53,771 nucleotides of DNA from Candidatus Nomurabacteria bacterium GW2011_GWE2_34_25. GTDB lineage: Bacteria > Patescibacteriota > Minisyncoccia > Phycocordibacterales > UBA9973. Both the position numbers and the translations under genes were made by a program. Each line of letters begins with the position of its first letter. The first letter of the stretch is position 1. Positions 5,054 to 52,648 of the stretch are shown here, piece by piece. Under the pieces are notes generated by a model, which saw only the letters and a list, made by a program, of their open reading frames with translations, searched no databases and was not told the origin of the DNA. The stretch lies in assembly GCA_000990325.1 (NCBI GenBank), contig LBPS01000004.1, positions 1-53,771 on the forward strand, read 5' to 3'.

Positions 5054-7660
5054 TTAATGTGTTGTCGTGTGAATTACTGTTTTGCTTTCACTTGATGTTT
5101 TCCTGTAAGAACGAGCGATTAGAATTATTAACAAAATTAGAAGAATTATCAATAACCAACCTACAAGACCGATTGAGAACAATCCACCAAAGAAAGCTGC
5201 ACTTCCTAGAACAGAGTTATCTATTGTTGAAACTAATCCCCCCAATCTAGGCACATTGATGACATATGCCATAACATTTTCTTGGGATCCATTTGTATTT
5301 GTATATATCAGAATTGCTGTTGTTGGAATTTGAGAATTATTCAAGGGGATACTGTCGACTTGTCCTTGTAAATATATAACGCCTTCTTCTCCTGCATTAA
5401 GATCTTCAACCTGTGCAGAAAGTGTATGTGTATCTACTGCATATGTCCCACGTGAAGAATTTACAAGTGTAACGTTTGTAGGAAGAATCACTTGAACCAT
5501 AGGTTTTACTAACCTTGTCTTTCCAATATTTTTGTAAGTTACAACATAGTCGATAAGGTCACCTTCTCCAATAACTTGATATCTATTTGTTATATTTAAC
5601 AAAACAGGAGATTCTCTACCAATGACAGTTGTCCCTTGTATTATTATAGGTTGAACTGTGACCTCTTTTAGTGTTCTAAAAATTTCAATACTTCCCTTAG
5701 ATATTCCGTCTGGACCTTCTCCTACTGCTCTAAAGTAGTAAAGGGTATTGGGACTAAGGCCTCTTAGATAATCACTCATGTTACTATTACCAATAGTATT
5801 TTTTGAAGTGGTTCTTGATCCAAGATTTATTGTTGTTCCATACTCAAAATATGTATTGGCATTATAATAAGATGAGCTAGTTATATATCCATTAACTTGT
5901 GCTTCATTCTTAGAAATATTTGTGGCAACAGTTGTAACTACGTTTTTATTTACATAGATAACATAGTTACATGGCAATGCACCTTTGTAATTTGTCGCTG
6001 TTGGATCCTGACATAATTGCTGTGTTGGTGGATAATAACATGGTAATGAGCCACGGTAATTTGAAGCACTTGGGTCCTGACATAGTCTTACTGGGTATTC
6101 GCATGGGAGTAAACCGCGATAATTACTTGCTCCCGTATCCTGACAATATAGTCTTGTTGGTTGTGGATAATAACATGGTAATGAGCCACGGTAATTTGAA
6201 GCACCGGGGTCCTGACAAATTCTTACTGGGTATTCGCATGGAAGACTTCCTCTATAGTTACTTGCACCTGGATCTGTACAAACTCTTACGGGATACTCAC
6301 ATGGTAGTCCTCCACGGTAATTTGAAGCATTTGGATCCTGACATAGTCTTATGGGATATGTACACGGAAGTAGTCCTCGATAATTTGATGCAGATGGGTC
6401 TAAACAAATTCTTGATGGATAATTACATGGTAATGGACCTCTATAGTTTATAGCAGATGGGTCTTGGCAAAGTAGTACTGGGTAAGCACAAGGTAATGAT
6501 CCATTATAATTAGTTGCATTTGGATCCTTACAAAGCTGTGCAGGGTAAGTACATGGAATTGGATTATTGTAGTTTGATGCGGATGGGTCCTTACAAAGTT
6601 GCACAGGGTAATTACATGGCAATGATTTTCCGTAGTTTGTCGCTGAAGTATCTTTACAAAGCTGTAATTGATTCACAACAACAGTCCTTGTTAAATATTG
6701 ATATATTCCAGTTTGTGAACGTGCTGCCAATGTATAAATTGTTGTTTCAGAAGGTTTTACTGTCTCATAATCTACTTCATTTACAGTTCCTATTGTTGGA
6801 GAAATGCTTACTAAATTACATCCACTTGTTGACCAATTTAGCACGGAAGAATCTCCTACTGTTATAGTGCTAGGACTTGCTGAAAAGCCTTTAATTAAAC
6901 AAACAGTTGGCTGAGGATACACACATGGTAATGAGCCATTGTAGTTTGTGGCATTTGGATCCTTACAAAGCTGTGCAGGGTAAGTACAAGGAAGAGCCCC
7001 GTTGTAGTTTGATGCAGATGGATCCTTACAAAGTTGTGCAGGGTAAGTACAAGGAAGTGTACCTCCATAATTTGTCGCAGAAGGATCTTTACAAGTTTCG
7101 GGAATAATAGTGTCACTTACTTTAAATGCAACATTTATAGAACCCTGGGTATTCCAACCTGGAGCAATATCTCCAATATTTAAACCACTACTACTTAAAA
7201 CTGCAGAGCTACTCTGTCCATTTGGCAAAGAAGCTTCAACTTGAGTTTGATTTGGATACCATTTAGCAGAAAGAAGACTGAGGGTCTGTGATGATGAAAG
7301 ATTAACTGAGACATTTTGAGTATACAGATTTCCTTGGTTTGAAAGAATTTGTGCACTAAAAGAATGGTTCATAGAAGAACCAGTTGGTGCAAATACTTTA
7401 ATACGAGTATTTGTATTTGTTGTATTACTTGTATTGTGATAGTAAACCTTCACATTGATAATATCCCCTGCTTTGGCACTTATGTTTGTACCATTCCAGC
7501 AAGGACTACCATAACCGTTATTGGTTGTGTAGTTTGCAATGTTTATATCTGGACAATCACCAGATACACCGTTCCATGTTCCAGCGAAAGCGCTTTGAGC
7601 TACAAAAAGTAACGCAAAACCAAAGATTCCGACTATTATTTTTTTCATATATTTTTTCAT
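5054..7660 (-). CDS. Secreted, C-terminally membrane-anchored surface protein with 14 copies of a C-x-D-P-x-A-x-N-Y-x4-P-C-x-Y-P repeat, Ig-like and DUF11-like domains
   Basis: N-terminal signal peptide (MKKIIVGIFGFALLFVAQSAFAG); repeats such as CQDPGASNYRGSLPCEYPVRI; C-terminal TM GWLLIILLILLIILIARSYRK. Confidence 0.85.
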   Translation of the reverse strand: MKKYMKKIIVGIFGFALLFVAQSAFAGTWNGVSGDCPDINIANYTTNNGYGSPCWNGTNISAKAGDIINVKVYYHNTSNTTNTNTRIKVFAPTGSSMNHSFSAQILSNQGNLYTQNVSVNLSSSQTLSLLSAKWYPNQTQVEASLPNGQSSSAVLSSSGLNIGDIAPGWNTQGSINVAFKVSDTIIPETCKDPSATNYGGTLPCTYPAQLCKDPSASNYNGALPCTYPAQLCKDPNATNYNGSLPCVYPQPTVCLIKGFSASPSTITVGDSSVLNWSTSGCNLVSISPTIGTVNEVDYETVKPSETTIYTLAARSQTGIYQYLTRTVVVNQLQLCKDTSATNYGKSLPCNYPVQLCKDPSASNYNNPIPCTYPAQLCKDPNATNYNGSLPCAYPVLLCQDPSAINYRGPLPCNYPSRICLDPSASNYRGLLPCTYPIRLCQDPNASNYRGGLPCEYPVRVCTDPGASNYRGSLPCEYPVRICQDPGASNYRGSLPCYYPQPTRLYCQDTGASNYRGLLPCEYPVRLCQDPSASNYRGSLPCYYPPTQQLCQDPTATNYKGALPCNYVIYVNKNVVTTVATNISKNEAQVNGYITSSSYYNANTYFEYGTTINLGSRTTSKNTIGNSNMSDYLRGLSPNTLYYFRAVGEGPDGISKGSIEIFRTLKEVTVQPIIIQGTTVIGRESPVLLNITNRYQVIGEGDLIDYVVTYKNIGKTRLVKPMVQVILPTNVTLVNSSRGTYAVDTHTLSAQVEDLNAGEEGVIYLQGQVDSIPLNNSQIPTTAILIYTNTNGSQENVMAYVINVPRLGGLVSTIDNSVLGSAAFFGGLFSIGLVGWLLIILLILLIILIARSYRKTSSESKTVIHTTTH
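5960..7095 (-). repeat. Tandem ~63-bp (21-codon) coding repeats, two blocks (about 6905-7095 and about 5960-6662) split by an Ig-like domain
   Basis: 14 near-periodic repeats read directly in protein and DNA. Confidence 0.9.
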
Positions 7661-9737: not shown

Positions 9738-11438
9738 ATGAGTATTATATTTGATGATGATAAGCAAAATAAAAACCTTGCAGATTTAAAAAAGCAAGAA
9801 GAAGAAGATTTAGTTCAAGTTTTAGCTGAAGCTCGCTATGGAGTACCGGCTGTTCACCTCTTGGATATGCCCATAGACAATGATGCCCTCCGTACTATCG
9901 AGGAGAAAGAAGCGAGAGCACTAGGAGTTGCTCCATTTAAAGTTTTAGGTAAGGATATTCATGTCGCAGTTCACTCTCCTCAACCAGACAAGCTAGAAAA
10001 CTTACAAAAATATTTTTCTGATCACGAATATATCCCCCACTTCTATATGGCCTCAATGGCTAGCCTTGAAAAAGCATGGGAGAGATATAAAGAAATATCT
10101 TATGCCAAAGAATCTAAATCTGGAAGTATCGCAATTTCAGGTGAAGCTTTGAAAAATATAATGGTGAATATAAAAAATGTAGAGGATATTAAAAAAGCTG
10201 TCCTAGAAATTGAAAAGGATAACGTACATACCACTTCACACATACTAGAAATCGCCATCGCAGGGGCTGTCGCTATCAATGCTTCTGATATACACTTTGA
10301 ACCAGAAGAAAATACTGTTCGACTAAGATTCCGCCTCGATGGAATTCTTCATGAAGTCATGGAGATTCCACCAGTTGCTCATAAATTTATAAATTCTCGA
10401 ATCAAACTTATTTCTGGACTTAAAATTACCTCAAACTCTATCGCCCAAGATGGACGCTTTAGTATCTTTCTAGATGATGATGAAATAAGTCTCCGTGTAT
10501 CTCTGATCCCTGGTGCTTACGGTGAGTCTATCGTCATGCGTATTTTAAATCCAAAATCTATCAGAGTAAAGCTAGAAGATATGGGAATCGAACCAAAGTT
10601 GTATGACATTTTTATGAGAGAAATTAAGAAGCCCAATGGGCTCATACTTCTGACCGGCCCTACTGGCTCAGGTAAAACAACCACCCTTTACTCTTTCCTA
10701 CAAAAAATTTATTCATCAGAGATTAAAATTATTACAATTGAAGATCCTATTGAATATCATTTGCCTGGGATCACTCAGACTCAGACAGACGATGAGAAGG
10801 GATATACCTTCTTAGAAGGGCTACGTTCTTCTCTTCGTCAGGATCCAGATGTCATAATGGTTGGAGAAATCCGGGATGCCGAGACAGCAAAAATTGCCGT
10901 AGAATCTGCCTTGACTGGTCACTTGGTCTTTTCTACCTTGCACACCAACAACGCTGCAGGTGTGATCCCCCGTCTTATAGACTTGGATGTTAATCCCAAG
11001 ATTCTCGTTTCAGCTCTTTCCTTATCTATCGCTCAGCGACTAGTGCGAAGACTTTGTGTACATTGTAAGAAAGAAAGAAAAATAAAAGACGAAGAATTAT
11101 CTACAATCAACACTCTCCTAGAAAAGGCAAAATCTCATAACAAAAATCTGAGTGATTATGGAGTAGACTTAAGTACCCCATTTAAAATTTACGAACCAGT
11201 TGGCTGTCTAGAATGTAACAATACTGGATACAAAGGGCAGATAGGAATATTTGAAGCTATTTATAATGACGAAAGGATTGAAAATATCATAACTAAAAAT
11301 CCAAGCGAGAGAGAAATAAAAGAAGCTGCCAGAGATCAGGTCTCTCTCACTATACAAGAAGATGGTTTAGTAAAAATATTAAAGGGCATCACTGCTTATG
11401 AGGAAGTTACGAGTGTAGTAGATTTATCGGAAGAGTAG
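9738..11438 (+). CDS. pilB: Type II secretion/type IV pilus assembly ATPase (GspE/PilB family)
   Basis: Walker A GPTGSGKTTTLYSFL, Asp box ITIEDPIEY, Walker B DPDVIMVGEIRDAETA, His box, zinc motif CVHC...CLEC. Confidence 0.93.
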   Translation: MSIIFDDDKQNKNLADLKKQEEEDLVQVLAEARYGVPAVHLLDMPIDNDALRTIEEKEARALGVAPFKVLGKDIHVAVHSPQPDKLENLQKYFSDHEYIPHFYMASMASLEKAWERYKEISYAKESKSGSIAISGEALKNIMVNIKNVEDIKKAVLEIEKDNVHTTSHILEIAIAGAVAINASDIHFEPEENTVRLRFRLDGILHEVMEIPPVAHKFINSRIKLISGLKITSNSIAQDGRFSIFLDDDEISLRVSLIPGAYGESIVMRILNPKSIRVKLEDMGIEPKLYDIFMREIKKPNGLILLTGPTGSGKTTTLYSFLQKIYSSEIKIITIEDPIEYHLPGITQTQTDDEKGYTFLEGLRSSLRQDPDVIMVGEIRDAETAKIAVESALTGHLVFSTLHTNNAAGVIPRLIDLDVNPKILVSALSLSIAQRLVRRLCVHCKKERKIKDEELSTINTLLEKAKSHNKNLSDYGVDLSTPFKIYEPVGCLECNNTGYKGQIGIFEAIYNDERIENIITKNPSEREIKEAARDQVSLTIQEDGLVKILKGITAYEEVTSVVDLSEE

Positions 11439-11452
11439 ATTTATATATAAGA

Positions 11453-11573
11453 AAGTAAAAGGTGAAATAGTCTTATCAGAGGGGCCGGCGGAGGGCGACG
11501 GCCCGAGCAATGAGCAAATTTCTAGCAAGAAATTATGCGGACCCTCTGAGAAGAGCTATTTCGCCTTTTACTT
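11453..11573. ncRNA. Structured intergenic repeat element, copy 1
   Basis: 18-bp outer stem (aagtaaaaggtgaaatag / ctatttcgccttttactt), cagaggg/ccctctg stem, GGGC-gacg-GCCC hairpin, aatttct-agca-agaaatt hairpin; homologous to 42079-42178. Confidence 0.6.
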
Positions 11574-11727: not shown

Positions 11728-11756
11728 AGTATAGCATACTAAGAAAATAATGTCAA
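11728..11756 (-). promoter_or_regulatory. Sigma70-type promoter of the ncRNA: TTGACA - 17 nt - TATACT with extended TGn
   Basis: Minus strand TTGACA (11751-11756), 17-nt spacer ending TGC, TATACT (11728-11733). Confidence 0.75.
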
Positions 11757-12772
11757 GTAAAGATATCACAACAAAAAATAGTGGTTCCGACCCCCTAGTA
11801 CAGAAAGACGAGGGGTTTTTGGATCAAACATTACGTCCAAATGTATGGACAGACTATATTGGTCAAGAAAATATTAAAGCTAACCTTAAAATACTTCTAA
11901 CTGCAGCCGAAGAGCGTTCTCATCCAGCTGAACATATACTTTTTTATGGACCTCCTGGTCTCGGAAAGACAACTTTGGCACATTTAATAGCCAAAGAGAC
12001 TCGTCGACAAATCAAAATTACTTCAGGTCCCGCCATTGAGAAGGTCGGGGACCTGGCATCAATCCTCACAAATCTTGCTCCAGGAGATATTGTTTTTATT
12101 GATGAGATTCATCGCTTAAATAAAATGGTAGAAGAAATTCTTTACCCAGCAATGGAATCTGGAGTTTTGGATATTATTATTGGTAAAGGTCCTTCAGCTC
12201 GAACAATCCAACTTGAGCTTCCGCCCTTTACTCTTATAGCTGCAACTACTCGTATCGCTCTCCTCTCTTCTCCTCTTAGGTCTCGATTCTCTGGAGGTGT
12301 TTTCCGTCTTGAGTTTTATACTCATGATGAAATAAAAAAGATTTTAACTCGTTCAGCAAAAATTCTCGGTGTAGAATTAGAAGATGAGGCATTAGATGAG
12401 ATTGCGAAACGGGCTCGATTTACTCCTCGTACTGCAAATTATTTCCTTAAACGTTGTCGTGATTATGCCCAAGTCCACAAACTACCCCTTTCGAAAGGCG
12501 CCGTCAAAAGTGCCTTGGCCTTACTAGAAATAGATGAAATAGGATTAACTTCTTCTGACAGAAGGGTTCTAGAAATAATTATTAATAAATTTAATGGTGG
12601 ACCAGTTGGATTGAAAACCATTGCTGCCGCTACAAGCGAAGAAGAAGCTACCATAGAAGAAGTTATCGAGCCTTATCTAATACAACTTGGTTTACTTGAA
12701 AGGACAACCAGAGGTAGAACAGTAACCAAGAAGGGTTATGAGCATTTGGGGTTCGATTTTATAGAAAAATAA
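11750..12772 (+). CDS. ruvB: Holliday junction branch migration DNA helicase RuvB
   Basis: LRPNVWTDYIGQENIKANL, Walker A YGPPGLGKTTLAHLIA, DEIHRL, RSRFSGG; C-terminal winged helix. Confidence 0.97.
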   Translation: MSSKDITTKNSGSDPLVQKDEGFLDQTLRPNVWTDYIGQENIKANLKILLTAAEERSHPAEHILFYGPPGLGKTTLAHLIAKETRRQIKITSGPAIEKVGDLASILTNLAPGDIVFIDEIHRLNKMVEEILYPAMESGVLDIIIGKGPSARTIQLELPPFTLIAATTRIALLSSPLRSRFSGGVFRLEFYTHDEIKKILTRSAKILGVELEDEALDEIAKRARFTPRTANYFLKRCRDYAQVHKLPLSKGAVKSALALLEIDEIGLTSSDRRVLEIIINKFNGGPVGLKTIAAATSEEEATIEEVIEPYLIQLGLLERTTRGRTVTKKGYEHLGFDFIEK

Positions 12773-28320: not shown

Positions 28321-28939
28321 CAGGATTAAATGTTTTATAAAATAATTCCACTACTTCGTCGGTCTTTAATTGACTGCTTCTAATTCCTATACCACTTAAA
28401 CCATTGATAATGACGTTTGTTCTCTGGTCTAGTTGACTACGCTTCTCCTCAAATGAAGCTAGGTCTATTGCCTTTTTGGTATCCTCAATTTGTTTTTTAG
28501 GAGCACCACCACCCAAGAGACTGTCTATCATACCCTCCTTTGTTTTTAATACATTGGGACTATAGGGTACAACTACAAAGAAAGTTTTCGTCATAATATT
28601 CACTTCATCAGTAAATGATCTTATAAATTCTATATACTCTTTCGTTTGTATTTTTAGGAGAGGTTCTGTTTGCTCTTTGAGTCTGTTGTCTAACATCAAG
28701 AGATAAGGCCTGATATCTAATCTTCTGGACTGGATTACTATTTGAGTTGGGAAATCAAGCCCGTTTAGAAAGGATTGGAATTGGTTAATGACAGCCGCTT
28801 GCTCTTCGCCTGATTTGAGTGAAAGATTTATAGAAGAAGCGATCAGTATAGCACGAAGACCACCACCCTTTAGAATTATGATGCCATTTCTAACTTCTTT
28901 TATTGGTACGAAATCTTGTGCTGCTTTTGCGTCAACCAT
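28289..28939 (-). CDS. VirB4/TraC N-terminal-domain-like protein encoded as a separate gene upstream of virB4
   Basis: KEVRNGIIILKGGGLRAILIASSINLSLKSGEEQAAVINQFQSFLNGLDFPTQIVIQSRRLDI; 32-nt overlap with the VirB4 ORF. Confidence 0.75.
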   Translation of the reverse strand: MVDAKAAQDFVPIKEVRNGIIILKGGGLRAILIASSINLSLKSGEEQAAVINQFQSFLNGLDFPTQIVIQSRRLDIRPYLLMLDNRLKEQTEPLLKIQTKEYIEFIRSFTDEVNIMTKTFFVVVPYSPNVLKTKEGMIDSLLGGGAPKKQIEDTKKAIDLASFEEKRSQLDQRTNVIINGLSGIGIRSSQLKTDEVVELFYKTFNPGDISQGIKLQ

Positions 28940-28941
28940 AA

Positions 28942-29036
28942 ATAATTACTGATTACCAATTACTAATTAATAATTTAAATTCTAATACCATTGTAGCATA
29001 TAATCAGTAATTGGTAATTAGTAATTGTTAATTATT
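28942..29036. repeat. Inverted repeat of ATTACTGATTACCAATTACTAATTA units (R1/R1')
   Basis: 28942-28977 and reverse-complement-like 29002-29036 flank an extended -10-like TGCTACAAT. Confidence 0.85.
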
Positions 29037-29445
29037 GACTATCCTTCCTGTCTTGAACATCCAAACTCCATGATAAATCCTTAAGTTTATTTTCTGAAAG
29101 CATTGGAACATTTGAGACGGCTGTAGGCATAGTGATTTCTTCTTCTTGTATGTCCCCCTTTTTAACTAATCTCTGTTTCCAAATATATAACTTACTAGAA
29201 ATTAGATAATTAAACGAAGCTTGCAGATAATAAATAAAAGGCTTGCTATTTATTTTAACGAAAACGAGACAAATAGTAAGCCCAGCCAATGGCAGTATCA
29301 GGAATATACTAATATATATAGGCAAAAGTTTATACAAGACAAAAATCATCCCTGCTCCACCAGCCATATAAGCAAACTGGTGAAAAGTAAAAGGACCAAA
29401 AAGCTTATCCTCTATATCTATAAATTGTGGAACTTTAAATTGCAT
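29032..29445 (-). CDS. PrgI-family protein (VirB3-like T4SS component)
   Basis: FKVPQFIDIEDKLFGPFTFHQFAYMAGGAGMIFVLYKLLPIYISIFLILPLAGL, characteristic PrgI N-terminus. Confidence 0.85.
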   Translation of the reverse strand: MQFKVPQFIDIEDKLFGPFTFHQFAYMAGGAGMIFVLYKLLPIYISIFLILPLAGLTICLVFVKINSKPFIYYLQASFNYLISSKLYIWKQRLVKKGDIQEEEITMPTAVSNVPMLSENKLKDLSWSLDVQDRKDSQ

Positions 29446-29449
29446 GTAT

Positions 29450-29600
29450 ATAATTACTGATTACCAATTACTAATTAATAATTTAGCTCAAGAATGACAC
29501 TAATTAAAACCTAAAATCGTAACATATAACAATATTCTACCACAACAACCATAACTTTTGCATTTTTATCAGTAATCAGTAATTGGTAATTAGTCATTAT
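29450..29600. repeat. Inverted repeat of the same AT-rich units (R2/R2')
   Basis: 29450-29485 is a 36-nt exact copy of 28942-28977; 29569-29600 is the inverted arm. Confidence 0.85.
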
Positions 29601-29949
29601 TCCTGTTGTTTTTAGTTGTTTTTTGAATAGAAGTTAATAATTTTAGAATTACAACTATTTTTTCAGTATAAAAATCAAACTCTTTTTGTGTTATATATTT
29701 ACCTCCTAATAATAATTTTAACCAATATTCAGTTTCCCTAGCCTCTTTATAAGAAATAGATATTTTTGATATAAAATCATTTCTTGATTGTGCCCCTATA
29801 GATTCTTCAATATTTGCACCAATTGATGTTGCTGAACGAAAAATCTGCTTTGATATAATATATTCTTTTCTATCAACTAGCTTTTTGTATAATTCAATTA
29901 TCAGTAATGAAAACTCAAAACTTTTTTGCTGGATGATGTTTTCTTTCAT
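29590..29949 (-). CDS. Four-helix bundle protein (S23 / 23S rRNA intervening-sequence / bAvd-like family)
   Basis: FRSATSIGANIEESIGAQSRNDFISKISISYKEARETEYWLKLL signature. Confidence 0.9.
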   Translation of the reverse strand: MKENIIQQKSFEFSLLIIELYKKLVDRKEYIISKQIFRSATSIGANIEESIGAQSRNDFISKISISYKEARETEYWLKLLLGGKYITQKEFDFYTEKIVVILKLLTSIQKTTKNNRNND

Positions 29950-29969
29950 TAGTAATTGGTAATTAGTAA

Positions 29970-31133
29970 TTATATAGTCTCGTGGTAGGGATCGTGAGGG
30001 TTTGAAGAAGCTTCTCCTTGTGCCTTCATAAATGGATCTGGCTTAGGAGTCATTTTTGGGATAGAGTAATCTGTAGCTGTAGTTTGACTGACTGTTGTAT
30101 TGAATAATTTATCGGCTACTATGTTGCCTATAAGTGCACCCTCTTTCTTTGGTGCCACTTCCATAGATTTCTCTTTTGGTATTTCTATTGGTGCCATATT
30201 TTCTACTTCAGGCGTATAATTATTTGAAATAATTTCTATGCCATGTTCTTTATATAGATCAGCTTCTGATTTAGTGGAGAGTTTGTCTAGATTATCTTGG
30301 AGGCTCTCCTGGGTTATCTCTTTCAAACTAGCCCCTTTTATTTCAGTTTTAGGAGGAAGTGGTACCTCACTTTCTGTTTCTTTGGTAATTGGTAACTTGT
30401 CACCCGCCTTGTTGTCGGACAGGCTAGTAATTACTTTGTATGGAGGAAGTGGTACATTTTCGTCACTTGGTCCTACCTCAGCACTGTTTTTCATGGCCTC
30501 TTTTATGTTTACAAAGATACTTTCATTTATTTCCGCCACAAATTCCTTGATTTTCTCTTTCTGTATCTCTATTTTAGAAGTCACCTCTGATTCATACTGG
30601 TCTGCTCGAATTATTCCTAGAAATACATTGGCGGTGATGTCTTCCAATTGACCCATTTTATCAACAGCTAGATTGTATTTATTGGCTATTGTATAGAGCT
30701 TCTCCTTCCAGTTAGAGAAAGCAATCGCATCCTTTACTTCATTGGGAAGTTTATCGAAACGTTCCTCGAAATTTTTTGCATATGCTTCTTTTTCAAATTC
30801 TGCTATGTTGTCGGTATAAGATTTATATATTAGAGGAGCTATATCTTTCACTATTTTTTCATTGACCTCTTTTATTATATCGTCGGTTTTACCTTCTTCG
30901 AGTTTTACCTCTTCCCTCAAAGTTTGCTCATAATCATTTGGATCTATAATTCCTAAAAGTAAAAGGGTGGTTTCTGTTCCGAGAGATTTAATCTGTTCAT
31001 CATTTAAAGAATATTTGGTATCAATTTCTTTTATGGTTTCTAGCCAACTCATACCAGCAAAAAGTACCTTTGTCTCCTCTGGAAGCTTTTGGTAGTATAA
31101 GGCTATTTTTTCTTGTAATTGTGTTTGATCCAT
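29970..31133 (-). CDS. Cytoplasmic protein with two tandem ~95-aa helical domains, conserved with T4SS-like cluster by position
   Basis: Duplicated LPEETKVLFAGMSWLETIKEIDTKYSLNDEQIKSL... and LPNEVKDAIAFSNWKEKLYTIANKYNLAVDKMGQL.... Confidence 0.65.
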   Translation of the reverse strand: MDQTQLQEKIALYYQKLPEETKVLFAGMSWLETIKEIDTKYSLNDEQIKSLGTETTLLLLGIIDPNDYEQTLREEVKLEEGKTDDIIKEVNEKIVKDIAPLIYKSYTDNIAEFEKEAYAKNFEERFDKLPNEVKDAIAFSNWKEKLYTIANKYNLAVDKMGQLEDITANVFLGIIRADQYESEVTSKIEIQKEKIKEFVAEINESIFVNIKEAMKNSAEVGPSDENVPLPPYKVITSLSDNKAGDKLPITKETESEVPLPPKTEIKGASLKEITQESLQDNLDKLSTKSEADLYKEHGIEIISNNYTPEVENMAPIEIPKEKSMEVAPKKEGALIGNIVADKLFNTTVSQTTATDYSIPKMTPKPDPFMKAQGEASSNPHDPYHETI

Positions 31134-33925: not shown

Positions 33926-36900
33926 TTACCAAATATTTAGAATTGCCTCGTATTCTTTCAAATTTACTTTAGGTGTCCACTTACAGTCATTTATAAAATT
34001 TTTACCAAATGGATCTTCATAAATACAGTACAATTGACTTACGGGATTTGCACAATTATAATCACCGTTTCCAATATCACCAGCACCAGAACAAAAACTA
34101 TTTTCAACTGGAACATTTATACTTGCTCCTCCCCCAGTTAAGTACGAACCTCTCTCATTATATTTATACCAAGGATTACCGTATCTTGTTGTAGGCCCTG
34201 TATATGTTGGGTTTTTTGTTAACCCGTTTTTACTTGTTGTTTCGGCATAGCATTGATTTGTGAGATAGTCTAACCTTCCTATAAGTTCCTTGTAATTGTC
34301 TATTTCTCTATAGATCATACTTATATCTTCTTCGGTCTTAAGAGTTGGAGCAATGAGGTAGAATTTACGCAAGAGTTCTGCAAGCTTTGCCTTTTCTACA
34401 TCTGTAAATGTTAGAGGGTTTTGATCTATTGCTAGACATTTGTTGGCAGGGACAGGTGGAACCTTCTCTGAATTATGAGTAGCCACGTAAGGTTTCTCTA
34501 ATTTACCCTCTTCGTGACACTGCGGATCAAGCTGGTCTATAAAGGTATCATCGTCATTATCTACCGTATCAGCACATGCTGTGGGAGATACACCCTCGGA
34601 ATCGTTACTAGGGATATAAGGCTTGGCTAGATTTCCTTCTGCATGACAGTTAGGATCCTTCTCGTCAACCTTACCGTCCCCATCATTATCCTTAGTATCA
34701 GAACATTGTGTAGGAAGAGTGTCTTCAGAGAAGTGTGTAGGAATATATTCCCCTGTTACAATGCCACCAATATGACAATTGGGGTCAAGAATGTCTGCAA
34801 GCTTATCCTCATCATTATCCTTGGTGTCATTACATTGAGCAAATTCACTGACCGGAGGAGAAACTTTTTCGGAATTGTGACCAGGTACGTAATCTTTATT
34901 CAAATCTCCATCAATGTGACATTGTGGATCATTTTTATCTATAAGCTTATCCCCATCATTATCTTTGGTATCAGCACATTGGGATACTCCATCAGCGGGA
35001 GAGAACTTTTCTGAAAAATGTGTAGGGAGGTATTTACCAGTTATGACTCCTCCCTCGTGACAGTTTAGATCTTCTACATCTATCTTGCCATCTCCGTCAT
35101 TGTCTGTCCCATCAGAACATTGAGCCCTACCACCCCCTACTTGAACAGCTTCAGAGAAATGAGAAGGCACATATTCTTTATTCAAATCTCCATCAATGTG
35201 ACATTGTGGATCAAGTGCATCAGCCTTAGTATCTTTATCGTTATCTTTTCCATCAGAACATTGAGCTTTGCCATCTCCCACTTGAAATGCTTCAGAGAAG
35301 TGAGTAGGTAGATATGAATTTATATTATTTACATCCCCATCTGTATGACATTGTGGATCTCTCACATCTGTAACTTTATCACCGTCGTTATCTATGCCAT
35401 CAGAACATTGGGCATTTGTTGATAAAGGAAAAGTAGTTTCGGAAAAATGGGTAGGTATATATGCTTTTGCCAAGTTACCATCTAGGTGGCAACTTGTATC
35501 GCCTTCATCTGTTTTGCCATCTCCATCATTGTCTATATCGTCATTACATTGTGCGATTAGACTATTGGGTGAAGTAGTTTCTGAAAAATGAGAAGGTACA
35601 TACTCTTTATTCAAATCTCCATCTAGATGGCAGTTTGGATCATCTTTATCACTTTTCCCGTCATCATCATTATCTATACCATCAGAACATTGTCGGATTG
35701 CACTATTGTTGTCGTTACTTACAACAATAACAGAAGTACTCCCGCCGATAGATCCATTAATTCCAGTACATGTAACAGCAAAAGATTTACTTGTAGTTAG
35801 TAACCCAGTCGAAAATGATCCCGTTGTTCCAGTTCCATTACCAATACCCGCATTACAGCTTACTGTGTCTGTCGATGTCCAAGAAATAGTCGCCATCCCT
35901 TCTCTCTCAAAAGAAGATGGATTAGCTGTGACTGTGACTGTTGGGAAAGTTCTGTTGCTCCCAATGATAACAAAAGCGTTACCACCACTTGTTCCATTTT
36001 CACCAGTACAGACAACGCTGAACATTTTACTTTTCTTTAGTAATCCTGTAGAAAATGATCCCGTTGTTCCAGTTCCATTACCTGGTCCAGCACTACAGGT
36101 ATTGCTATCTGTCGATGTCCAAGAAATAGTCGATACCCCTTCTCTCTCAAAAGAAGATGGAGTCGAGGTAACTGTAACTACTGGGAAACGATAAGGATCT
36201 ATTTTTTCCCAACCACCAACACCATCTCCCTTCCCTTCACCATTTTCACTATTGATTTGCGGGTTAATGATTACAGGTTTTTCGATTTTTGGTGCAGTTT
36301 TCTTTCCCAAGAATCCAAAGAAAGAATCCCAGAAGGTGTTTGAGGTACTACTGTTCGTTAATGTTACTTCTCCTATATTATCATTTCTTATATTTTGATT
36401 GGCAAAACCAAAAATATTATTATTTTTGATAGCACTAGGATCATTGTTTACCATATTCATAACAATAGGTATTTGCTTTTTGTACTTAGTATAAGTAGAT
36501 ATATATACTTCGTCCCCCTCTTTGAGGTCTTCTCCCCCTTGGGCTATTATTCTCTTGTTCTGTCTGTTGCTATCTGTTATTGTGACCCTACCTAGAAGAT
36601 TAATACTTATATCTTGATTTGCAATTCCATATATATTGTTTGGATCAGATGAATTAGGGTCATTGATATCCACTTTGAAAACCTTGGCCACAGTTTCAGT
36701 CTTTTCAACATAGCCCGAAACGTAAATGCTGTTCTTGTCTTTTATTTCTTCGCCAGCTAGAGCCAAGGTTTTGTTGGACTCATCAGGATCTTTAGATGAC
36801 AGTAGAGAAGAGAATAATCGAGCACTACTACTTGAGGAATTCATTATTCCTCCATCTTTAAATAATAGGAAATAGCCTGCTATTAAAAGCAATAGAATCA

Positions 36901-36949
36901 GTATGAATGTTATGATGAAAGCTTTACTTTTTTTAGGTTTATTTTCCAT
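33926..36949 (-). CDS. Membrane-anchored surface protein with two Ig-like domains and nine Asp-rich CxDxxDNDxDxxxDxxDPxCH repeats
   Basis: N-terminal TM IITFILILLLLIAGYFLLF; nine ~47-aa repeats such as QCSDGIDNDGDKVTDVRDPQCHTDGDVN...PTHFSE. Confidence 0.85.
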   Translation of the reverse strand: MENKPKKSKAFIITFILILLLLIAGYFLLFKDGGIMNSSSSSARLFSSLLSSKDPDESNKTLALAGEEIKDKNSIYVSGYVEKTETVAKVFKVDINDPNSSDPNNIYGIANQDISINLLGRVTITDSNRQNKRIIAQGGEDLKEGDEVYISTYTKYKKQIPIVMNMVNNDPSAIKNNNIFGFANQNIRNDNIGEVTLTNSSTSNTFWDSFFGFLGKKTAPKIEKPVIINPQINSENGEGKGDGVGGWEKIDPYRFPVVTVTSTPSSFEREGVSTISWTSTDSNTCSAGPGNGTGTTGSFSTGLLKKSKMFSVVCTGENGTSGGNAFVIIGSNRTFPTVTVTANPSSFEREGMATISWTSTDTVSCNAGIGNGTGTTGSFSTGLLTTSKSFAVTCTGINGSIGGSTSVIVVSNDNNSAIRQCSDGIDNDDDGKSDKDDPNCHLDGDLNKEYVPSHFSETTSPNSLIAQCNDDIDNDGDGKTDEGDTSCHLDGNLAKAYIPTHFSETTFPLSTNAQCSDGIDNDGDKVTDVRDPQCHTDGDVNNINSYLPTHFSEAFQVGDGKAQCSDGKDNDKDTKADALDPQCHIDGDLNKEYVPSHFSEAVQVGGGRAQCSDGTDNDGDGKIDVEDLNCHEGGVITGKYLPTHFSEKFSPADGVSQCADTKDNDGDKLIDKNDPQCHIDGDLNKDYVPGHNSEKVSPPVSEFAQCNDTKDNDEDKLADILDPNCHIGGIVTGEYIPTHFSEDTLPTQCSDTKDNDGDGKVDEKDPNCHAEGNLAKPYIPSNDSEGVSPTACADTVDNDDDTFIDQLDPQCHEEGKLEKPYVATHNSEKVPPVPANKCLAIDQNPLTFTDVEKAKLAELLRKFYLIAPTLKTEEDISMIYREIDNYKELIGRLDYLTNQCYAETTSKNGLTKNPTYTGPTTRYGNPWYKYNERGSYLTGGGASINVPVENSFCSGAGDIGNGDYNCANPVSQLYCIYEDPFGKNFINDCKWTPKVNLKEYEAILNIW

Positions 36950-41071: not shown

Positions 41072-41887
41072 CTAAGCATTTTTATCGAAAGATTCTCTAA
41101 TTTTTAGCCATTTTTTGAAAGGTACATCTTCGGCTCTAACTTTTGTATCTATCTCTAATTTATTAAAAATTTCATCAATATAAGGAAGTCCGACTTCCTT
41201 AATATTAAGATCTTCCAAATTTTTTCTGAGGACTTTTCTTTTGTGTGCAAAACCAGCTTTGATTAATCTAAAGAATGATTCTTCCTCTTTTTTATCCTTA
41301 AAAACTTTATTGGAAATATTGTTTATAGAAATAATAGCTGAATCAACCTTTGGAGATGGAGAGAAGAACCTTTTGTGGACTTTCATTATATACTTTGGTT
41401 CTCCATAAGCCTTGATACTTAAGGATAATATGCTTTCTTTGTTGTCTCTCGCGACAATTCTCTCGGCCACTTCCTTTTGCACCAAAAGAGTCATGGTATT
41501 TGGTCTGTTTACTTCTGAAAGGAACCTTCGAATGATAGAACCCGTTATATTATAAGGAATATTGGCGATAATCTTATAGGTTTCAGGTTCTAGGTTATAG
41601 GTTTTAGGGTTGAATTCCAATATATCTTCATTAAGTAAAATCAATTTTCCTTCTTTTATTTCATTTGCAAATTTATCCTTTAAAATATCGATTAAATCTC
41701 GGTCTTTTTCAATGGCAATGACATTTTTTGCTTTTTCTAAGAGTTTTTCAGTCAAAACACCTTTCCCTGGTCCAATTTCTACAACAATATCGTTATTATT
41801 CACATCTCCAGCCTCGCACATCTTGAAAAGAGCCTCTTTAGACTTCAAAAAATTCTGCCCCATCGATTTTTTCGCTTTGTGAATCAT
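41072..41887 (-). CDS. rsmA: 16S rRNA (adenine1518-N6/adenine1519-N6)-dimethyltransferase
   Basis: AKKSMGQNFLKS, VVEIGPGKGVLTEKLL, IANIPYNITGSIIRRF, KRFFSPSPKVDSAII. Confidence 0.95.
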   Translation of the reverse strand: MIHKAKKSMGQNFLKSKEALFKMCEAGDVNNNDIVVEIGPGKGVLTEKLLEKAKNVIAIEKDRDLIDILKDKFANEIKEGKLILLNEDILEFNPKTYNLEPETYKIIANIPYNITGSIIRRFLSEVNRPNTMTLLVQKEVAERIVARDNKESILSLSIKAYGEPKYIMKVHKRFFSPSPKVDSAIISINNISNKVFKDKKEEESFFRLIKAGFAHKRKVLRKNLEDLNIKEVGLPYIDEIFNKLEIDTKVRAEDVPFKKWLKIRESFDKNA

Positions 41888-41904: not shown

Positions 41905-42050
41905 CTAAAAACTCCAACAAATAGCTCTTCATTTTATTGTTTTTAAAATCTTCATTAAAAAATTCTCGGACTCACCACACAATAAAATTCTGCTGAATTT
42001 TTTGCTCGCACTCGGCTCGACAGCCTGCGTGAGGGTTCGCTCGAGAACAT
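41905..42050 (-). ncRNA. Structured intergenic repeat element, diverged copy 3 (inverted orientation)
   Basis: Minus strand GGCU-GUCG-AGCC hairpin, GAGC, AAAAUUC-AGCA-GAAUUUU hairpin, and 3' tail GAAGAGCTATTTGTTGGAGTTTTTA identical to copy 2 tail. Confidence 0.5.
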
Positions 42051-42078
42051 TTTAATTCCGCATTTTAAAAAACGTAAA

Positions 42079-42178
42079 CAAATAGTCTTATCAGAGGGGC
42101 CGGCGGAGGTCGACGGACCGAGCAATGAGCAAATTTTCAGCAGAAAATTATGCGGACCCTCTGAGAAGAGCTATTTGT
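42079..42178. ncRNA. Structured intergenic repeat element, copy 2
   Basis: caaatagtcttatcagagggg...ccctctgagaagagctatttg, highly similar to 11461-11560 with compensatory changes. Confidence 0.6.
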
Positions 42179-42191
42179 TGGAGTTTTTATT

Positions 42192-44135
42192 TTAAAGATA
42201 AACAATTTTTTCTCCTCCCCTCGAGTAACTTTGTGTGAAATCTGTCAGGTGAGCTGGAATATCATAGATGAATTCACTTGGTGTATTTACTTGCTTCATA
42301 CCGAAAATTGTACGGAGCGATGCATAAGTGAGGAATAACTTTTTTTCAGCCCTCGTTAGAGCCACATAGAAAAGTCGGCGTTCCTCTTCCTTATCTTCTT
42401 TAGTACCAGTTCCCGTGCGAGCATGAGGGAAGAGATCTTGTTCAAGCCCCGTGACAAATACATATTTGAATTCTAGTCCCTTAGAAGCATGAACGGTCAT
42501 AAGTCTTACCCCACCTTTTTTATCTGTATTGCTTGGTATCAAGCCGTCTTGATCACTTGAGAGAGAGGCATCTTCTAATAATTTTTCGATACCATCTTCC
42601 ATTTCATCATATTTAAGACAAAGGGTCACAAGTTCTTTCATATTTTCTAATCTCTCCATTTCTTCATTGGTCCCGTGTGAGAGTTCATCTTCAAGTCCAC
42701 TTTTTTCTATAATATATTTTATAACCTCTGTTGGTTTATGGGTGTCTATATATTCATGAATCTCTTCAAGTAGTGCATAGAACTTATTTATTTTAATTTG
42801 CATTCCGGCTGGTAGCTCAGAAGAAAGACCTGCAAGTATTTTTGTTAGGGTTACTTTTCCTATCCCCCTTGCTGGTGTATTTATAATTCTTTTTATATCA
42901 CTTAGGCTTTCTTTATTTAAACTTGCTTTAACATAAGAAAGGATATCTTTGATTTCTTTTCTCTCAAAGAATTTTATTCCGAGTACTTGGTAAGGAATTT
43001 GTCTAGAAAGAAGAGCTTCCTCCAATACACGCGATTGGAAATTAGCCCTATAAAGTATAGCTATATCTTCAGGTTTGTTTTCCCTTAGAAGCTCATCTAT
43101 CTCTCTAGCGACGAAGTCAGCTTCGCTTACTTCGTCGTATGCCTCACAAACAACTATTTGTTCACCATCAACATTTTTCGTAAACAAAGTTTTTGGAACT
43201 CGGTATTGATTCTTCTCTATTACATTATTGGCTGCTTCAATTATTTTTCCTGTCGAGCGATAATTCTGCTCAAGCATTACTATCTTTGCACTAGGATAGT
43301 CTTTTTCAAAATGAAGCATGTTTTTTATATTGGCTCCTCGCCAGCTATAAATATTCTGATCTGTATCTCCAACAACACAAATATTTTCATTTTTACCTAC
43401 CAGAAGTTTTGTCATCTCGTATTGAACTTCGTTGGTATCCTGATACTCATCGACGTGCACATATTGCCACCTTTCCTGGTATTTATTTCTTATATCTCCA
43501 AATTTACGCAAGATCAAAACCGATTCTAAAAGTAAGTCATCGAAGTCTAAACCTTTTTCTTTTTTGAGCCTTGCTTCGTAGCCTCCCCATACTAGTGCTA
43601 CGATACTTTGTATGCTACTTTTTACATTTGCTCGATAGTTTTCGAGACTTATGAAATCCCCTTTTGATTTTGAAATTATACTTTTAATTTTTCTAGGTTC
43701 ATGTTGCTTGGGATCTATGTCGTGCTCTTTCATTACATCTTTAATAATAGATATAGCATCGCTCTCGTCGATAATTGCGAAGTGTTTCGTTAGTCCTATT
43801 AGGTGAGCATTTTCTTTAATGATGTGGACACCAAGAGAATGAAAGGTGGAGACAAAAGGGATACCGGCGCCCGAGCTTCGCTCGGGCGCACTTACCCCAT
43901 GAATCTTATTTTCCAAAAGCATCATTACCCTGTCTCGCATCTCTTTCGCCGCTTTGTTTGTAAAAGTAACAGCCAGTATCGAAGATGGATCAACCCCCTC
44001 ATGTATCAAGTGGATTATCCTGTGAGTTATCGTCTTCGTCTTCCCCGCCCCCGCCCCAGCTACTATCAAAAGAGGCCCCTCTATGTAAAGGACCGCCTCT
44101 TTTTGTTTATCATTTAGTGAATCAAGATATTCCAT
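42192..44135 (-). CDS. pcrA: UvrD/PcrA-type superfamily 1 DNA helicase
   Basis: LNDKQKEAVLYIEGPLLIVAGAGAGKTKTITHRI, VDEYQDTNEVQYEMTKLL, VVGDTDQNIYSWRGANI, LMTVHASKGLEFKYVFVTGLEQDLFPH. Confidence 0.95.
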   Translation of the reverse strand: MEYLDSLNDKQKEAVLYIEGPLLIVAGAGAGKTKTITHRIIHLIHEGVDPSSILAVTFTNKAAKEMRDRVMMLLENKIHGVSAPERSSGAGIPFVSTFHSLGVHIIKENAHLIGLTKHFAIIDESDAISIIKDVMKEHDIDPKQHEPRKIKSIISKSKGDFISLENYRANVKSSIQSIVALVWGGYEARLKKEKGLDFDDLLLESVLILRKFGDIRNKYQERWQYVHVDEYQDTNEVQYEMTKLLVGKNENICVVGDTDQNIYSWRGANIKNMLHFEKDYPSAKIVMLEQNYRSTGKIIEAANNVIEKNQYRVPKTLFTKNVDGEQIVVCEAYDEVSEADFVAREIDELLRENKPEDIAILYRANFQSRVLEEALLSRQIPYQVLGIKFFERKEIKDILSYVKASLNKESLSDIKRIINTPARGIGKVTLTKILAGLSSELPAGMQIKINKFYALLEEIHEYIDTHKPTEVIKYIIEKSGLEDELSHGTNEEMERLENMKELVTLCLKYDEMEDGIEKLLEDASLSSDQDGLIPSNTDKKGGVRLMTVHASKGLEFKYVFVTGLEQDLFPHARTGTGTKEDKEEERRLFYVALTRAEKKLFLTYASLRTIFGMKQVNTPSEFIYDIPAHLTDFTQSYSRGGEKIVYL

Positions 44136-52504: not shown

Positions 52505-52572
52505 GAAGAATAATTAACCCAGTAGGTGATTTTGGTAAATCATGATTACCAATTACTAATTAAAAATTGAGA

Positions 52573-52617
52573 AACAAGAAAGGGCTCGTCAGCTAAAGCT
52601 GACGAGCCCTTTCTTGT
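52573..52617. terminator. Strong bidirectional terminator (aacaagaaagggctcgtcagc-taaa-gctgacgagccctttcttgtt)
   Basis: Near-perfect long hairpin with T-rich 3' arm, between convergent genes, flanked by ATTACCAATTACTAATTA/TAGTAATCAGTAATTTGTAATTA arms. Confidence 0.9.
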
Positions 52618-52648
52618 TAGTAATCAGTAATTTGTAATTATTAATTAC

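Follow-up and report, generated by a model that had tools for sequence, protein, structure and literature searches.

The 53,771-nucleotide stretch of Candidatus Nomurabacteria bacterium GW2011_GWE2_34_25 analysed here (contig LBPS01000004.1; hereafter the window) carries three copies of a palindromic repeat that probably represents a new non-autonomous, RPE/REP-like family of the Patescibacteria, acting and keeping its fold at the DNA level. Copies are gained and lost at gene ends, their conserved heads are homogenised genome by genome, independently of the arms, and the hairpin inverts in place. Very small Patescibacteria genomes therefore carry an actively turning-over palindromic repeat, one that enters the essential genes recG and tsaD in frame and replaces terminators.

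An earlier reading of the DNA made without database searches (the sequence-only reading) had proposed a structured element at 11453-11573 with a second copy, and three family members in the window. The element is real. Its 97-nt core (AAATAG...CTATTT; 11465-11561, + strand) forms together with self-complementary flanks a unit of about 11453-11573 between a type II/IV secretion ATPase gene (9738-11438) and ruvB (11750-12772). The left and right arms (11453-11464 and 11562-11573, both +) are unique in sequence to this copy and pair with each other, in line with the claim of different but self-complementary outer flanks. Head hairpin 1 (11493-11504, +) reads GGGC-GACG-GCCC, with the loop motif YGWCGR and non-canonical GGA / GA flanking it, and head hairpin 2 (11514-11538, +) reads GCAAATTTCT-AGCA-AGAAATTATGC, with a single bulged A. 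The core of copy 2 (42080-42176, +) is 94% identical to that of copy 1, and its arms (42069-42079 and 42177-42187, +) contain a symmetric internal loop, GTA / GGA. The third member (41957-42052, -) belongs to a diverged subfamily with the outer stem TTCTCG...CGAGAA and was recovered over the window at 42.1 bits (E 1.5e-9) by a covariance model built from 29 copies; the next independent matches reach only E about 0.1. Copies 2 and 3 lie 27 nt apart on opposite strands in the intergenic region between an rsmA-like gene (41072-41887, -) and a uvrD-like gene (42192-44135, -). The three stem exchanges quoted earlier as preserving pairing are all present, and the folds of copies 1 and 2 are more stable than those of shuffled sequences (z -8.5 and -6.6, respectively; 0 of 200 shuffles equally stable). 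The window also contains a second, AT-rich dispersed repeat in intergenic positions (AGTAATTGGTAATTAGTAATTA and its reverse complement; 28939-29610, 29936-29972 and 52532-52647), as well as large genes on the - strand (5054-7660 and 33926-36949) that contain tandem repeats of ~63 bp and 129-147 bp and probably encode surface proteins.

Every copy folds into a long hairpin whose tip forms a Y-shaped head: hairpin 1, carrying the YGWCGR loop, and hairpin 2, carrying a loop of the AGCA type and one bulged A, are set apart by joints rich in G and A. Among 118 aligned copies, standard pairs fill 96.4% of the paired cells, double changes occur at 29 of 30 pairs and covariation extends to all four helices. 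It scores 0.521 versus 0.181 for shuffled alignments and no more than 0.11 with the structure slid, above every shuffle and every slid control; relatedness is not removed by the shuffle and is retained by the slid control. Mismatches in the stems are almost all G-A (83 versus 3 T-C), and G-U exceeds A-C (58 versus 20). Thus, the preserved fold is that of the G-A rich strand. Strong covariation by itself need not imply a functional RNA. At L396:1345-1479, L067 and L071, a different hairpin stands in for head hairpin 2 or enlarges it, which suggests nested insertion.

A genome-wide covariance-model search, as the sequence-only reading had recommended, identified about 20 copies at >=40 bits in the window's genome (767 kb, 19 contigs, Ca. 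Nomurabacteria-like) and at least one match in 54 of 61 relatives, with a maximum of 31 matches. An assembly artefact is excluded, since copies occur not only in the assembly that the window comes from but also in dozens of independently assembled genomes of related species. Across 287 genomes sampled evenly from the phylum, covariance-model matches were found in 6 of 12 genomes of the same order, the window's own genome not counted, and in none of the 11 from other orders of the same class; outside this class they reappear in one or two families (f84, f76), where copies have the same head and unrelated arms. Scanning 85,462 species for an exact pattern gave 31 stretches, all from Ca. Nomurabacteria, Parcubacteria, Adlerbacteria or unnamed uncultured genomes. 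No family among the Rfam 15 covariance models matched, whether by gathering score or by E-value, no similar DNA was found in the phages and plasmids searched, and the open-access literature yielded no earlier description in Patescibacteria.

Copies sit mostly just past genes, after stop codons, in either orientation; among copies flanked by tandem genes, 46 run in the sense and 38 in the antisense direction. A count by hand in genome G004 gave no link between copy orientation and GC skew or replication strand. Eighteen loci of the window's genome are comparable in G004, with a family member at 8 and none at 10; read by eye, 4 of these 10 loci hold another palindrome and 6 nothing of the family. 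Five of the seven intergenic copies with a G004 counterpart are inverted in place: the uvrD-rsmA pair, turned as one block, the copies at C13:39571 and C14:7139, and the copy upstream of recA, in which the inner part is reversed and the outer arms are retained. The empty sites at C17, C9 and C13:36377 contain no hairpin, and the recA-upstream locus indicates that a hairpin is not required at empty sites. Copy boundaries are not sharp, and target-site duplications are unreadable because intergenic flanks diverge fast. Unrelated palindromic families (GGTCCTCGGACGAAGG..., CTTTACCCCAAAGGGGC..., CCCCTCCCCCTTA...) occupy the same intergenic or in-gene hot spots in related genomes (L364, L368, L370 and L371; tsaD loci L097, L103 and L105-L108).

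The arms and the heads of these hairpins evolve separately. About 11 nt on each side of the core are self-complementary within each copy (142 copies), with pairing of 80-84% at positions 1-3 (31-35% for re-paired flanks) and 70-77% at positions 7-10 (about 30%), and a dip at positions 4-6, where GNA stands opposite GNA in many copies. Arm sequences differ even among copies whose cores are at least 95% identical. Heads are on average 0.757 identical within a genome, 0.68 across genomes at orthologous loci and 0.666 at unrelated loci, whereas arm identity is 0.40 between orthologous loci versus 0.33 otherwise; within-genome pairs are non-independent, and p-values for this comparison are indicative only. 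The rpmE-prfA copies of G000 and G017, for example, share their arms (AAAAAAATCAT / ATGATTTTTTT), while their heads are only 59% alike. A single hairpin thus has two levels, heads that track the genome and arms that track the locus, so that head conversion, in-place inversion and templated correction of palindromes can each be tested directly. It is conceivable, if on balance doubtful, that what moves is the Y-shaped head alone, a piece of ~60 nt of DNA that would replace or enter the tips of existing hairpins (terminators, other palindromes) and leave host-specific arms, with no usual transposase involved.

At rpmE-prfA, most element-free relatives carry a short hairpin and T-tract directly 3' of rpmE, and the element occupies this terminator place in G000, G001, G013, G015, G016 and G017; at least six species carry it instead of the simple hairpin. 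The outer arms of the G015 copy (AAAAAGATA / TATCTTTTTT) match the simple terminators of G003, G012 and G014. Since the rpmE arms resemble a resident terminator whereas other empty sites are free of hairpins, one insertion model does not cover all copies; insertion into a pre-existing hairpin, tried as a single model, fits rpmE in G015, fails at several hairpin-free empty sites and was rejected. Over all tandem contexts, runs of four T in the transcript sense occur in 58% of downstream flanks versus 32% of upstream flanks. A scan for simple terminators called none at the window copies, so termination is only inferred.

Two copies of the window's genome lie in frame within recG and tsaD, and both inserts share the peptide GSI....PS.SKK.S..LLRADG.NM. 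The RecG insert is present in G000, G004, G015, G020, G021, G010 and G017 and absent from G003, G009, G012 and others, where the loop is about 28 residues shorter. The TsaD insert is present in several genomes and absent in G004; its site holds other palindromes in G005, G009, G019, G020, G021 and G023. The structure of the in-gene copies covaries as well, and 72 of 114 copies overall are open in the frame used within genes. To judge from these sequences, an ORF-bearing subfamily appears to be tolerated in the RecG and TsaD loops, leaving the genes unbroken. A small in-frame hairpin insert (CAAATTTTCAGNAGAAAATTT) was also observed near the N-terminus of RsmA in G004 and G009 (L073, L074) and is absent from the window's genome.

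The compensatory changes had been attributed at first to selection on RNA or single-stranded DNA structure. The constraint on one strand's fold stands, given the mismatch bias and the covariation of all four helices, but the RNA part of that claim is not supported. A regulatory or protein-binding 3' UTR element, selected as RNA, would agree with the strong covariation, with a strand that tolerates G-U over A-C and G-A far over T-C, and with a location just past stop codons; it is nevertheless very unlikely in the face of random orientation to transcription, in-place inversion between close genomes, common empty sites and the blank Rfam search. The random orientation of copies to genes and the five inverted copies out of seven thus make a strand-specific RNA unlikely; single copies may have an RNA function. 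The covariation could instead be mostly mutational, produced by quasi-palindrome correction through template switching with no selection on the fold. Whole paired blocks change between close orthologues (CTAGCAAG -> TCAGCAGA), arms are self-complementary though unique, and hairpins invert in place, all of which such correction would explain. However, conserved unpaired features (GGA/GA, the bulged A and 3x3 loops) survive it and the mismatches are almost all G-A, so a selected or copied fold is needed, and correction as the main source of covariation is rather unlikely, if a serious contender. Templated palindrome correction, not selection, may lie behind part of the covariation.

That the element is more than an ordinary terminator, as had also been claimed, holds for its structure, yet some copies occupy the exact intrinsic-terminator position of relatives. 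The replacement of the rpmE terminator, together with the left A-tract and right T-tract, is what a family consisting only of elaborate, non-mobile intrinsic (bidirectional) terminators would produce. We consider such a family quite unlikely, because copies also lie in frame within recG and tsaD, unrelated loci of one genome share near-identical heads, copies come and go between close genomes, and the terminator scan was blank at the window copies. The suggested association with TnpA_REP was not supported. A REP-like element mobilised by a RAYT / TnpA_REP (Y1 HUH) transposase would be palindromic, as here, with about 20 copies per genome and a G-A rich strand asymmetry, and the window's genome has three genes of the RAYT family PF01797. 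Copy number, however, correlates only weakly with PF01797 count (rho 0.27; 0.18 within genus), a search for PF01797 had no match in 8 genomes carrying 9-27 copies, and one copy lies near the 32 PF01797 genes, which is about the chance expectation. Neither copy number nor location is tied to PF01797 genes; mobilisation by RAYT was therefore rejected and is highly improbable. No transposase recurs beside copies, their neighbours being housekeeping genes; this, and outer arms that differ among near-identical copies, led us to reject a DDE-transposase MITE as well. A divergent mobilising enzyme below the detection limit is possible. For the Rickettsia palindromic elements (RPE), too, we know of no mobilising enzyme. 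Two loci with RAYT-like genes were seen in passing: at L049:1270-2650, a RAYT-like Y1 transposase gene has around it three copies of another palindrome (AAATGCACTAGG...CCTAGTGCATTT), apparently its own REP-type repeat, and at L081 (G013) a RAYT-like gene has inserted immediately 3' of uvrD, at the place where other genomes have the element.

For a palindromic DNA repeat of the kind favoured here, copying would involve a hairpin of the G-A rich strand, in single-stranded or cruciform form, and the fold of this strand would be what is retained. Conversion or template switching between resident hairpins would spread the heads, perhaps along with insertion at hairpin tips; for head exchange as for inversion, it is the outcomes that point to such a mechanism. 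Intergenic copies would be tolerated because strong, roughly symmetric hairpins can serve as bidirectional terminators, a role consistent with the hairpin and T-tract seen at the transcript 3' end of rpmE in several genomes; some copies lie instead inside genes.

The family is new and its kind is known (RPE/REP-like); its unusual traits are swappable heads, self-complementary unique arms and in-place inversion. REP and BIME sequences are short extragenic palindromes by gene ends, present in many copies, one strand of which has a preferred fold. The family described here is similar in being a multicopy palindrome by gene ends with a strand-preferred fold, but differs from the REP / BIME-RAYT system in its much greater length, its three-way junction and the lack of a link to RAYT genes. 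SPRITE-like MITEs (named in PMC10969869) are terminator-like repeats at gene ends, a description that also applies here; unlike them, the present family has no constant terminal inverted repeats, as its arms vary by copy, and the T-tract does not lie behind every copy. RPE are palindromic repeats of ~100-150 bp found in intergenic regions and in frame in unrelated genes, with a conserved encoded peptide (PMC10969869). They are close in kind to the present family: both are multicopy palindromes of ~100-150 bp with in-frame copies in unrelated genes, an open frame and a shared peptide. The family differs from RPE in its host, Patescibacteria rather than Rickettsia, in the mostly intergenic position of its copies, and in its Y-shaped conserved, exchangeable heads, unique arms and in-place inversion.
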